Positions 38,412 through 45,501 of a stretch of 64,000 nucleotides of DNA are shown here, piece after piece. A model generated the notes under the pieces. The model was not told the DNA's origin. It did not search any database and was given only the letters and a program-made list of their open reading frames with translations. The stretch comes from Methanorbis rubei (GTDB lineage Archaea > Halobacteriota > Methanomicrobia > Methanomicrobiales > Methanocorpusculaceae). A program made the position numbers and the translations under genes. Each line of letters begins with the position of its first letter. The first letter of the stretch is position 1. The stretch is taken from NCBI RefSeq assembly GCF_032714495.1, contig NZ_JAWDKB010000005.1:62001-126000 (forward strand), given 5' to 3'.

Positions 38412-39146
38412 TTACATTATCCTCGGGAGGAACATCATAATCACCATAAAGGCGATACATCCTGCTACGAGACCGTAGAGGATACCGATGTCACGGCCGA
38501 TTTTTCTTCCGACACGCATTGCGATTTCAGCATCAGTGAACTCGACCTTCTTCTCGATCGCGTCAAGACGCTTTTCAATCTCAAGGAACTGCGGGTTTGC
38601 ACTGGCAACCGTAGAGCCTGCACCGCTTCCCCCTGCATCATCAGAGATCTGAATGACGATCGGGTCAGCACCGAATGCTCCGGGATCCCTTGTTTTGAGC
38701 TCGTTAATCTTTGCAGAGATCTGACCAACGTCTTCGCTCTCCATAATGTTAACGATCTCAACCTGCTCCTGGAACCGCTTAATGTGTTCTGCCGTCAGGT
38801 TCTCAAGGAACGGAATTGCTCCGCCGGAACCGACAATCTTACCGCCCTCAACACCGTTTTTGTGCATCGCATCGATACTCTGACCACTGAGGTGACCTTT
38901 CACTTCAGTACCGCAGAGGAGAACGAAACGAATGTTCGGGTTTGAGATGATGTTGGCGACAATCTTTTCAATACCGAGGTTTTCGGTCTTACAGGATCCT
39001 GCGAGGGCAGCTCCTGCAGCACAGATTGCCGTCTCGTCGAGGTGGGAACCCATGGTGATAACAGCCACTGGGCTGTTTGCGTCACCGGTGTGGTAGTCAC
39101 CCTGGACAATTGGCCATCCGCTTGCTGGTGATTTCTTATCTGCCAT
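38412..39146 (-). CDS. MtrA-MtrG fusion: second corrinoid domain joined to subunit G
   Basis: 244 residues. Residues 1-170 are a full MtrA corrinoid domain, differing from the neighbouring MtrA at only about four positions and keeping the cobalt-ligand His85 ([10 protein letters not shown]). A Gly/Ser/Ala linker (171-183) then joins MtrG (184-244: [33 protein letters not shown], one membrane helix). No separate mtrG exists in the operon, and this frame sits exactly where mtrG is expected, between mtrF and mtrH. So subunit G here carries its own corrinoid-binding domain. The MtrA-specific membrane helix is absent from it. Confidence 0.93.
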
Positions 39147-39351: not shown

Positions 39352-40086
39352 TTACATCACTCCATAGAAGAGAGCACCGAGGATGACGAAGGACACGATA
39401 AGACCAATCATCAGACCCTCAATTTTACCTCCGTAGAGACCGGAAGAGAATCTGGTGCGGTAACCGATGTCGGTAACCATCATCTGGATAAATTTCATGC
39501 GGGCAGTGATGAGTGCCATCTCACCGGTCAGAGGTTCTTCCTCGCCGGCTTCTGCGCCTCCGGCGGATCCGCCGTCATCATCAGAGATCTGGATGACGAT
39601 CGGGTCAGCACCGAATGCTCCCGGATCTTTTGCTTTGAGCTCGTTAATCTTTGCAGAGATCTGACCAACGTCTTCGCTCTCCATAATGTTAACGATCTCA
39701 ACCTGTTCCTGGAACCGCTTGATGTGTTCTGCCGTCAGGTTCTCAAGGAACGGAATTGCTCCGCCGGAACCGACAATCTTACCGCCCTCAACACCGTTCT
39801 TGTGCATTGCTTCGATACTCTGACCACTGAGGTGACCTTTCACTTCAGTACCGCAGAGGAGAACGAAACGAATGTTCGGATTTGAGATGATGTTGGCGAC
39901 AATCTTTTCAATACCGAGATTTTCGGTCTTACAGGATCCTGCGAGGGCAGCTCCTGCAGCGCAGATTGCCGACTCGTCAAGGTGGGAACCCATAGTGATA
40001 ACAGCCACTGGGCTGTTTGCGTCACCGGTGTGGTAGTCACCCTGGACAATTGGCCATCCGCTTGCTGGTGATTTCTTATCTGCCAT
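39352..40086 (-). CDS. mtrA: Tetrahydromethanopterin S-methyltransferase subunit A
   Basis: 244 residues from ATG 40086. The corrinoid domain fills residues 1-170, with cobalt ligand His85 in [10 protein letters not shown]; an acidic linker ([11 protein letters not shown]) and one C-terminal membrane helix (222-242) follow. The methyl group passes from MtrH to the cobalt here, then to coenzyme M through MtrE, with sodium export. Its first half kilobase is about 97 percent identical in DNA to the downstream MtrA-MtrG gene. The upstream ATG at 40095 would add three residues. Confidence 0.97.
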
Positions 40087-40091
40087 GTATC

Positions 40092-40385
40092 TCACATCCC
40101 AACAAGTAACGCGATTGCGACGAGACCGGCGATGAACAGTCCAACAGCGAGACCATACCAGAGTGAAGTGACGGTTCCTGCGTACAGGAGAGTCTTCTCA
40201 CGTCCGGGGTAGCTGTTGAGGAAGCTTCCTTCTCCGGAGAGCATTCCAACCAGATCATCTGCAATCTTTTCAAGTTCAGCAACCTGGTCAATAACCGGCT
40301 GGTAAGAGATACCTGCGGTCGTGACAATGCCTGCGATAGGGTCAGCTACGAGGCCAAATTCAGGTAATACTAATATATATCCCAT
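40092..40385 (-). CDS. mtrB: Tetrahydromethanopterin S-methyltransferase subunit B
   Basis: 97 residues. A soluble N-terminal part ([29 protein letters not shown]) is followed by one membrane helix ([20 protein letters not shown]). It is in the standard operon position between mtrC and mtrA. A GGAGGAA ribosome-binding site precedes the ATG. Its end overlaps the longest possible mtrA start. Confidence 0.96.
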
Positions 40386-42135: not shown

Positions 42136-43032
42136 TTAGGCCTCCGTAGCTGCCGCGGTGTAGGGTCCGTAGTTCTTGCGTGCCCATACCTCAACATAGC
42201 GATCGATGATCATGAAGATGAGGATGATAACAACACCTGCAACTACTGCTCCCCATCCGTTTGCGATAGGCTCAAAGAGAACGGTACGCCACAGTTCAAA
42301 GAACACAATTAAACCAAAGCAGAGACCAGATGCTGGTCCGCCGAGTTTTGCGGTGAAGAAACCGTTGTCGATAGAGCTTCTCTGACCGGCTTCTGCGTAA
42401 CGAACGATGTTACCGGATGCAGAGATTGGCACACCAGCACCGAACTTCTGGTTCTGGTACTGACGCTCCTTACCATAGTACGGGTTTCCGGTTGCAGAAC
42501 CTGCTGCACCAAGAGCGAGACCCCATACCACGCCGAGAAGCGGAAGTGCGAACGGGTGGTGAAGCACTGTTGACATCAGGTAACAAGCGGTTACCGTAGT
42601 GAAGATTGCAACGAATGCGTGACCCATGGTTACAGTCGTTACTGATTTTAAGACATCAATAAAGACCGGCTGTCCGAACTTGGAAAGACTTGCGGTTCTT
42701 CCAAGGTATGCAGTGGTAGCATAGATACCCTGCACGAAGGTTGCGAGAACTGCGCCGAAGATGATTGCCAGTACTGCATTAACATTCATCATAATGAATG
42801 CCCATGCAACACCGCAAGCAAGGGTTACCCACAGCGTGTATGCTGGGGGTTCACCGGATATTGCTTTGTTGTATATACGGTGAGTATAACCCATCTGAGG
42901 TGCAAGCTGGACCTGAGAGTTCGGGTCACCCTGTGAACCGATGTTAGACTCAGTATCCTCGGCTGCACCTGCAACCGCTGCGAGAGCTCCCGCAAGGGCA
43001 GTTACTCCAATGCCGATGATAATTTCTTGCAT
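42136..43032 (-). CDS. mtrE: Tetrahydromethanopterin S-methyltransferase subunit E
   Basis: 298 residues from ATG 43032 (MQEIIIGIGVTALAG), with about six membrane helices. The family loop DTESNIGSQGDPNSQVQLAPQMGYTHR-type region and GNPYYGKERQYQ are visible. MtrE is thought to carry the site for methyl transfer to coenzyme M. An AAGGGAGA ribosome-binding site lies 7 bases upstream. A longer in-frame reading to 43236 passes through the hairpins of the leader and is rejected. First gene of mtrEDCBAF-(A-G)-H. Confidence 0.96.
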   Translation of the reverse strand: MQEIIIGIGVTALAGALAAVAGAAEDTESNIGSQGDPNSQVQLAPQMGYTHRIYNKAISGEPPAYTLWVTLACGVAWAFIMMNVNAVLAIIFGAVLATFVQGIYATTAYLGRTASLSKFGQPVFIDVLKSVTTVTMGHAFVAIFTTVTACYLMSTVLHHPFALPLLGVVWGLALGAAGSATGNPYYGKERQYQNQKFGAGVPISASGNIVRYAEAGQRSSIDNGFFTAKLGGPASGLCFGLIVFFELWRTVLFEPIANGWGAVVAGVVIILIFMIIDRYVEVWARKNYGPYTAAATEA

Positions 43033-43320
43033 GTAAGATTCTCCCTTGAGTTTAGCGTGCACGAACTTTTTTCGTGCAAAACCTGACACCCCACAGGCAT
43101 CAGGCTGACGTTTCCGACAGTTCGGAAACGAACGTTGTGTTTCAGTGTGGAACTGAAACGAAGGATGCGTCTCAAGTAGCCGCACGAAATAGATCCGTGC
43201 AGACGTCACAGGAGTCGTATTTTGACTCATGGACAATTCACGATTTTACCCACACGTGAGATAAGCGTGAATGTTCGATTAACGTTACCACTCTAAAGAA
43301 TGGAGTACAAAGTGTGGACA
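43033..43320 (-). promoter_or_regulatory. Structured 5' leader of the mtr operon
   Basis: About 285 bases between the likely start of transcription and mtrE. At least seven consecutive stem-loops are visible. The best are 43109-43130 (9-bp stem CGTTTCCGA/TCGGAAACG), 43139-43159 (8 bp), 43059-43077 (7 bp, GCACGAA/TTCGTGC) and 43236-43272 (7 bp). The word at 43071-43077 can pair either with 43059-43065, next to the ribosome-binding site, or with 43182-43188. That is the layout of an attenuator or riboswitch, but it matches no class I know. Confidence 0.5.
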
Positions 43321-43342
43321 GTAACTTGTTTGCCCCATGAGG

Positions 43343-43356
43343 TATATTAATGTATA
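43343..43356 (-). promoter_or_regulatory. Putative TATA box of the mtr operon
   Basis: On the minus strand TATACATTAATATA. Start of transcription would be about 25 bases downstream, near 43,318-43,325. The rest of the gap up to the mcrA stop (43,357-43,794) holds no convincing gene. Just after mcrA is a T-rich tract (about 43,760-43,775, read on the minus strand) that probably ends the mcr transcript. Confidence 0.5.
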
Positions 43357-43794
43357 CGAAAATCGTCGAAGAGGCGTTCTTTGATCAAAGATTATTCCTG
43401 TTTTTTTGCCGGAATTGCCAATGTAATTTGCATTATAAACAATAAATATTCATAACACAAGTAAGCATTACTTCATCTCAATTTTATTGGCGCAAATGCA
43501 CCGGCATAATACCTTTGTCGTCAGAGAAAAGAAAGCATGCGGCAGAGGTCAGGAGAAAAAACAGGATATGTATTGATATAGGTCAGGGATTTTTTTCGAA
43601 AGGAGGGAATGTTCTCTGCGCGGATGAGAAGGGAGAGAGCACCCCAATCAGCTGCACTGATACCTGTACAGCCTTCGCCACCCTATCTGAAATACATGAA
43701 TTCAATCTGAAAAAAAAATCAGCAAAAGAAAATTTTTCAAAAATTTTGAAAGCGAAAAAGAAAAAAATTGGGTTTAACCACCCATGGAACAGAA

Positions 43795-45501
43795 TTACTG
43801 TGCCGGGATGATAAGCGAGCGCTCGCCTGCTGGCATGAACTCGCGGATAGCTCCCTTTGCGAACTCTTTTCTCGGGTTTGCAAAGTCGAACGTAAGTGCC
43901 GGATCTGCGAAACAGATCTTGATAAGCGGGGACAGTGCCCATGCATCGCCGCGGCCGAGGTGAGCTGCTGCTGCAATTGCTGCATACTCGCCCTGGTGAC
44001 CGACGTTCATTGCATAGTTCGGGTAGTTCGGTCCACGGAACTCACCAATACAACCCTCGTCGGGTCTCATGGAGAGAGAGTTTGCGGAACCGCACTGGTC
44101 CTGAAGGTCGTAGCCGAAGAATCCAAGTCTGGACCATCCATCCTTGTGCATAAGCATGGACAGGTACCAGGCGTTGAGACCAGCGTTAGAGTTACCGGTT
44201 GCAATAGAGGTGGTTGTACCACATGCTGCTGCAAGAACGGATGCACGCTGGGATCCACCGAAGTGGTCTTCAAGCATGGTCGGGAACTGTTCGTACTGTT
44301 CCATACCGTAAAGGTTGACTTCAGTACCGATGTCGTTGACAACTTCCTGAGTTGCTTTGACTTTGTCTGACGGGTTCGGGTTCTTCCAGTCGATCTTGTA
44401 CTTGTCGTGGATGTAGTCCATACCGTGGTAGACGAAGTCGTCGAGGATGTTATCGGTGTATGCTGCTGTTGCATACTGAGTGAAACCGACACCACCAGAC
44501 ATATACGAGCCGAGCCAGATCTGATCGAAGAGGACTGCACCTGCACCGACAACCTCAAGGGTTGACTTTGCGGGGTCATTCGGGTTCAGGCGGTCTGCCT
44601 GGATCATATCGGCGAAGTTGCCGAAGAGAATTCCTCCTGGCTCGTTCGGTCCACGTGCACGGCGTGCCGGCAGGTGGGATGCCATGTTGATGACACCAGC
44701 GTGCTTTGCTGCGAAGGACAGGTCTGCGACTGCTGCTTCACCAGCGCACATGCGGTATGCTGCAATGAAGGACATACCAATCTGCATTGCAGACCAGCGG
44801 GAGGTGGTTCCGCCATCGCAGGTACGGCCAACAATGGTCGGCATGTGGACACACTGCCACAGGGATTTGCCTACTGCTGCCTGAAGTGCCTCTGCCTGTT
44901 TCTTCGGGAAGAGTTTCTCGACATCAATAACGAACTGGGACTCGATAGAGTCTGCGAGTTCCTGGTCACCAGTGAAGACACGGACGTAACAGTCATCGGT
45001 TAAAGCCGGGTGGGTCTCAACCATGTGTTCCTGAACGACTGCTCCTCCTGGCATTGCGTGGTTGACGATGTGGAGGTACTCGGAGATAGTTTCCGGAGTA
45101 ACTTCCTTGCCAAGACGCTTCTGCAGGGTTGCGTGTGCCATATCCATGGACACGATAACGGTTCTGCGGATATCATCCCAGAACTGCTGCATTGCTGCAT
45201 TGTTAACGAAGTGCAGGTCATCACCCTCAACGAAGGTTCCGGTTCCGGAGACTTCGTAGGTCATGAGCTGACGCTGACCCATCGGGATACCACCAAGGTG
45301 GCAGCGTTCGGGGTCGTACATGGAGATTCCACGTTTTGCGACGATGGCCTCGTTCTCTTTCATGAACTCCAGCTTACGTGCGGACTGACGAACACCGTTG
45401 AACTTATAGAATTCAGTGGTGGTGGACTCGACGTCCTGCTTGGGGAACTTCTGCTTGAGTGCATCAAGGAAAAGTTTCTGAGTCTTCTCTACTTTTGCCA
45501 T
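43795..45501 (-). CDS. mcrA: Methyl-coenzyme M reductase subunit alpha
   Basis: 568 residues. This is the catalytic subunit of the nickel F430 enzyme that makes methane from methyl-CoM and coenzyme B. Sites of the known modified residues are present: AAKHAGVI (methyl-His), [12 protein letters not shown] (methyl-Arg), FGGSQRAS (methyl-Gln), and [13 protein letters not shown] (thioglycine, didehydro-Asp and S-methyl-Cys). The F430-binding Gln region and the GHQGEY segment are also intact. Last gene of mcrBDCGA, 3 bases after mcrG. Confidence 0.98.

Follow-up and report, generated by a model that had tools for sequence, protein, structure and literature searches.

Translational riboswitches stand before a metabolic operon and consist of a conserved 5' domain, in which conserved bases look single-stranded, and, after it, a stem containing the Shine-Dalgarno (SD) sequence. 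In Methanolobus psychrophilus, long 5' UTRs with predicted stems masking the ribosome-binding site (RBS) have been described; these are single-genome predictions, associated with alternative start sites in the cold and concerning Hsp20 and other genes (PMC5378194). The long 5' UTRs of the mtaA and mtaC mRNAs of a cold-adapted methanogen are reported to add transcript stability, as far as they are presented where cited in PMC5378194. The present analysis concerns the leader of the mtrEDCBAFGH operon in a window of 64,000 nucleotides, this being the whole stretch of DNA that was analysed. Mtr carries out the sodium-pumping methyl-transfer step of methanogenesis, and the Methanomicrobiales are widespread hydrogenotrophic methanogens. 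The mtr leader shares with translational riboswitches the order of its parts and its place before a metabolic operon, but differs from them in having no Rfam match, no known ligand and no conserved alternative pairing found to join the two parts; the covariation of its 5' domain is also weak. Like the leaders of M. psychrophilus, it belongs to a methanogen and has a predicted stem over the RBS, whereas its SD stem is conserved, covaries across families and stands before a single operon. It resembles the mtaA/mtaC leaders, as outlined in the citing paper, in being a long structured leader of a methanogenesis methyltransferase mRNA; the genes and the order are nevertheless different, no shared sequence is known, and the covariation of the mtr SD stem points to translation. 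Our preferred reading, to which we give a probability of roughly 0.55, is that the mtrEDCBAFGH mRNA opens here with a 5' untranslated leader which is a cis-regulatory RNA restricted to Methanomicrobiales and controls translation via occlusion of the SD.

In the window, which comes from a Methanocorpusculum-like genome, mtrE begins at 43032 on the - strand and the upstream mcrBDCGA genes, on the same strand, end at 43795. The features between them are collected in Table 1. The distance from a TATA box to the transcription start is about 23 bp (PMC11409679), and transcription in the window is predicted to start near 43322. Given the BRE/TATA-like promoter, the hairpins of the window should lie within the RNA, and we infer that this RNA is made as predicted. 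In most of the relatives' leaders a TATA-like box stands 32-34 nt before the conserved 5' block (in a minority of rows the spacing script picked up a nearer look-alike word instead), which would place the transcription start about 8 nt ahead of the block. This fixed distance would also suit an element acting at the DNA level, in which a transcription regulator would bind to the 5' block immediately after the start, as would the fact that the block is more conserved than expected for paired RNA tolerating compensatory change. Such an element is improbable, however, as conserved sequence and covarying pairs reach as far as the start codon, and the blocks in Methanocorpusculum are divided by 50-230 nt of inserted sequence. 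Upstream of its start codon the mtrE frame meets no stop over 68 codons of the leader (window 43033-43236, - strand), giving a TTG-started ORF at 42136-43236 by which gene callers could be misled; the differences in leader length among relatives are not multiples of three.

Table 1. Features of the mtr leader and its surroundings (window positions; all on the - strand)
Feature	Position	Strand	Description
Promoter	43343..43358	-	BRE-like CGTATACA 43358-43351 and TATA box TTAATATA 43350-43343, read from the sequence
Conserved 5' block GUCCACACUUUGUACUCCAUUCUUUAGAGUGGUAACGUUAAUCGAACA	43272..43319	-	Hairpin CCAUUC/GAGUGG inside, 43303-43298 with 43293-43288; nearly invariant in genus
Hairpin H2	43237..43271	-	43271-43266 with 43242-43237; long-form leaders only
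Hairpin H3 GAGUC/GACUC	43212..43228	-	43228-43224 with 43216-43212; long-form leaders only
Hairpin H4 GCACGGA/UUCGUGC	43182..43200	-	3' arm is the distal word of the originally predicted switch; long-form leaders only; one pair with two-sided change
Conserved block ACUUGAGACGCAUCCUUCGUUUC	43155..43177	-	CUUGAG 43176-43171 pairs with CUCAAG before the SD; (nearly) invariant in 18 leaders
Hairpin H5 GUUUCAGU/ACUGAAAC	43139..43159	-	Three pairs with two-sided changes in compact leaders
Hairpin H6 CGUUUCCGA/UCGGAAACG	43109..43130	-	Homologous hairpin with two-sided change in compact leaders
Hairpin H7 CCUGA/UCAGG	43082..43104	-	Long-form leaders only
Hairpin H8 GCACGAA/UUCGUGC	43059..43077	-	SD-proximal hairpin of the originally predicted switch; long-form leaders only; two pairs with two-sided changes
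Conserved SD block AACUCAAGGGAGAAUCUUAC	43033..43052	-	SD AAGGGAG 43047-43041; CUCAAG 43050-43045; one base varies, rest invariant
mtrE, first gene of mtr operon	42136..43032	-	Start codon 43032-43030; stop codon ends at 42136; 298 aa

The mtrE loci were gathered from genomes of the family and from GTDB genomes, and their upstream regions were compared; within the order the mtrE orthologues are 69-99% identical. The leader is real and conserved. Across much of the Methanomicrobiales the mtrE leaders have a common 5' block and, after it, a stem that contains the SD, the block being recognisable in Methanocalculus, Methanospirillum and the Methanoregulaceae types. The leader of the Methanoregula and Methanolinea type is about 85 nt long and reads ACCACAAAG-RGU-loop-ACUC-GAUGUGNGUGGCAUUGC-NNNN-UGAAYACUCUCGUGC-loop-GCACGCAGGGAGGAGGCUAA-AUG; Methanocorpusculum retains the 5' block as GUCCACACUUUGUACUCCAUUCUUWAGAGUGGUAACGUU...CGAACA. 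Several other families have shortened the 5' part and lost most of the block while keeping the SD hairpin. Leader identity within the Methanoregulaceae amounts to 79-94%, as compared to 54-68% above the promoter, which is the gapped-alignment baseline, and to 51-66% at third codon positions (the codon values are void for rows with L083, in which the start codon is misplaced). Among 11 representatives, mean leader identity is 0.69 versus 0.59 for the DNA above the promoter, the latter being near the gapped-alignment baseline.

A covariance model (R1) matched 47 of the 150 genomes of the order, once each, and the match stood directly before mtrE in every genome also covered by the mtrE protein search; in G067, which at first looked like an exception, a single mtrE is divided between the ends of two contigs. 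A wider use of the motif before other operons is therefore rejected, with one match per genome located at mtrE wherever this was checked. Across 247 genomes drawn from the whole phylum, R1 gave no credible match outside the order, the single outside match having an E value of 0.066; since the outgroup mtrE leaders are moreover unrelated, the presence of the same leader in other orders is rejected as well. Some mtrE leaders of those orders have hairpins of their own before the SD, in several genomes each: AAUUAUGGAU...AUCCAUAAUU and GCCAAAU...AUUUGGC, in leaders that are Methanocella-like (L135-L137, L143) and Methanothrix-like (L130, L132, L139). Methanocorpusculum scored poorly overall with R1 and the window leader obtained only 16.8 bits (E 0.2), so its homology rests on the aligned 5' block, the place after the promoter and the downstream gene. 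The leader is present once in the window's own genome by nucleotide search, and, used as query against the genus, it recovered three short conserved segments in compact relatives (query 6-54, 149-175 and 273-293).

The 5' block is strongly conserved in sequence, with few changes and weak covariation. Being almost invariant in the genus, its pairing is putative only, and the CCAC:GUGG pairing is broken in some genera. The possibility that the block encodes a leader peptide (M-N-H-K-G-F... in some genera) was also considered, ATG-AAC-CAN-AAA being found at the start of the block in several genera. The corresponding codon is nevertheless ATG, TTG, GTG, CTG, ACT or ACG depending on the genus, and the frame is broken by one-base length changes and by stops in Methanoregula, leaving no common frame. 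A peptide is thus hardly credible and was rejected, as neither start codon nor frame is kept.

In Methanomicrobiales other than Methanocorpusculum, the SD sits in a hairpin whose 5' arms are CUCUCGUGC, CUCUUGUGU and CUCCGGUGC in the Methanoregula, Methanospirillum and Methanoculleus types, facing GCACG+GGGAG, ACGCA+GGAG and GCACC+GGAG respectively, so that one pair of the stem is C-G, U-A or G-C according to the clade. The arms of a given clade pair better with each other than with arms swapped between clades (p 0.005-0.011; one leader per clade, the arms being found by an optimiser and treated alike for own and swapped pairs). A plain MAFFT alignment of the compact leaders gave no excess covariation for the SD-stem structure, because the bulge is not followed by the alignment and most rows are near-identical. 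Modelled SD accessibility is 0.29 at mtrE, not clearly lower than the 0.35 found at other start sites of the same loci, a rough control as most of these are genes inside the operon. An exceptional burial of the SD relative to other genes is thus not borne out; burial as such is unremarkable, and it is the persistence and covariation of the stem which are remarkable. A stem sequestering the SD, as in riboswitches, is conserved in the relatives, in Methanocorpusculum by model only. The GAGUG:CACUC pairing was considered as an anti-anti-SD element and rejected, being broken in Methanoregula. The short, often bulged SD hairpin of many genera, at about -9 to -13 kcal/mol, would be compatible with an RNA thermometer, the stem then opening on warming without any ligand. 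This is quite improbable: some leaders (L149, L150) have uninterrupted 9-bp SD stems, which at about -17 to -18 kcal/mol would probably not melt within the growth range, and the conserved 5' block would stay unexplained.

The window leader (43325-43030, 296 nt) has an MFE of -99.6 kcal/mol versus -75.1 +/- 4.8 in 200 dinucleotide shuffles (z = -5.08), none of which (0/200) was as low. It contains 10 perfect 7-nt complementary word pairs, as compared to a mean of 2.5 in base shuffles, a number reached in 2/500. The original prediction of a cis-acting structured leader is upheld, the structure being kept in relatives with covarying helices, and those helices which vary mostly keep their pairing. 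It had counted seven stem-loops lying end to end with perfect stems of up to 9 bp: the maximum is correct (43130-43122 with 43117-43109), while the count is eight local stem-loops plus a long-range helix between CUUGAG and CUCAAG. A two-way switch had also been proposed, in which GCACGAA (43077-43071) would pair either with UUCGUGC at 43065-43059 or with its second copy at 43188-43182. The three words are present at these positions, and their arms are able to cross-pair simply because GCACG is common to both stems. Pairing probability, energy, covariation and distribution among relatives all lead to the rejection of this switch. The pair probabilities of the local hairpin in the partition function are 0.82-1.00, versus 0.001 for the distal pairing, and forcing the latter by hard constraints yields -93.6 instead of -99.6 kcal/mol, a cost of 6.0 kcal/mol. 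Among six long leaders, the distal pairing displays no two-sided change and its score is reached by all 500 shuffles; in the local stem two-sided changes occur at two pairs, a C-G becoming U-A in L028. Finally, both hairpins involved (H4 and H8) are missing from 12 other Methanocorpusculum leaders. This particular switch is wrong.

In Methanocorpusculum the SD stem is formed by a 5' arm CUUGAGACGCAUCCUU and a 3' side CUCAAGGGAG, and the region enclosed contains two covarying hairpins in compact leaders and four in long ones, the window included; in the long form, further hairpins are inserted between the 5' block and the SD stem. The covariation score of the hairpins is reached by 0/500 shuffles for compact leaders and by 3/500 for long ones. 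With leader lengths of about 147, 196, 284-306 and 381 nt and insertions of 50-230 nt separating the conserved blocks, the loop of the SD stem has apparently grown into a hairpin array, the length series offering a case of a stem-loop apparently expanding into a multi-hairpin domain with fixed ends. Models of the 18 leaders of the genus all give a largely paired SD (75-89% paired, unpaired 0.11-0.25). The UCCUU of the central conserved block could pair with the SD itself, and this UCCUU:AAGGG pairing overlaps the CUUGAG:CUCAAG helix in 18/18 leaders. The helix has a modelled probability of 0.78-0.99 in long leaders, 0.98 in L018 and 0.02-0.67 in compact leaders, where UCCUU:AAGGG attains up to 0.52. 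Both pairings are invariant and hence without covariation evidence; even so, they make a stronger switch candidate than the pair first proposed. In compact leaders, for instance L009 (2386-2533, - strand), the last hairpin bears the loop UUAUCCACA on a variable stem; this loop repeats the 5' word UCCACA, and a long-range contact of it with GUGGUAA of the 5' block is possible. Lineage-specific extra hairpins are inserted at differing places between the blocks (L018 1304-1500, L028 2620-3000): L018 has two of them inside GGUARCG, and the termite-gut lineage an extra region of about 100 nt.

So many strong local hairpins, varying in sequence and number with their pairing kept, might simply protect the message, stems near the 5' end and ahead of the coding sequence slowing nucleases with no switch involved. 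The mtaA/mtaC leaders of a cold-adapted methanogen, reported to be stabilising in the work cited in PMC5378194, offer a partial parallel. A chiefly stabilising role is unlikely though plausible, and would leave unexplained both the nearly invariant, unpaired-looking 5' block and the location of the SD inside a conserved stem in most genera. Most likely, the leader is a translational control element. Its first part would be the conserved 5' block, which starts a few nt past the predicted start of transcription, and its second part the SD-holding stem just before the mtrE start codon, a single local hairpin in other genera. Ribosome access to mtrE would depend on the opening of this stem, and a factor, protein or metabolite, acting via the 5' block would shift the balance between open and closed forms; the block, as the best-conserved part and the first in the RNA, would be the obvious candidate for a sensor or binding site. 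The SD stem would thereby set the translation of mtrE and, through mtrE, that of the rest of the operon. We infer, in this sense, that translation is regulated and that a signal of some kind is sensed. None of the results bears on the corrinoid, methyl-group status or sodium suggested as ligand in the original prediction. To see in the leader a new class of archaeal riboswitch, which would sense a methanogenesis metabolite, cofactor or ion in order to set Mtr translation in Methanomicrobiales and be loop-expanded in Methanocorpusculum, is a doubtful extension of this reading.

At the gathering score, Rfam yielded nothing but tRNAs in the window and no match in 15 related loci; at E <= 5, no credible match was obtained for the window leader or for the leaders of two relatives. 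In agreement with the original prediction, no known riboswitch is matched, and assignment to a described Rfam family, cobalamin and SAM riboswitches included, was rejected as scores fell short of the family thresholds. No description of the leader was found in a literature search outside of which most subscription journals lay, so a published description may exist; the mtr leader RNA is apparently undescribed. A conserved leader which tends to hide the SD and for which no matching RNA family was found may therefore be a hitherto undescribed point at which methane production is controlled, and control of Mtr translation by leader RNA, if true, would represent a regulatory layer for which no description was found. 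At about 85 nt, the compact form lends itself by its small size to direct structure probing and to screens for ligands or proteins. Further down the operon in the window, two adjacent and near-identical mtrA-like genes are present on the - strand at 38412-39146 and 39352-40095, coding for 244 and 247 aa respectively.
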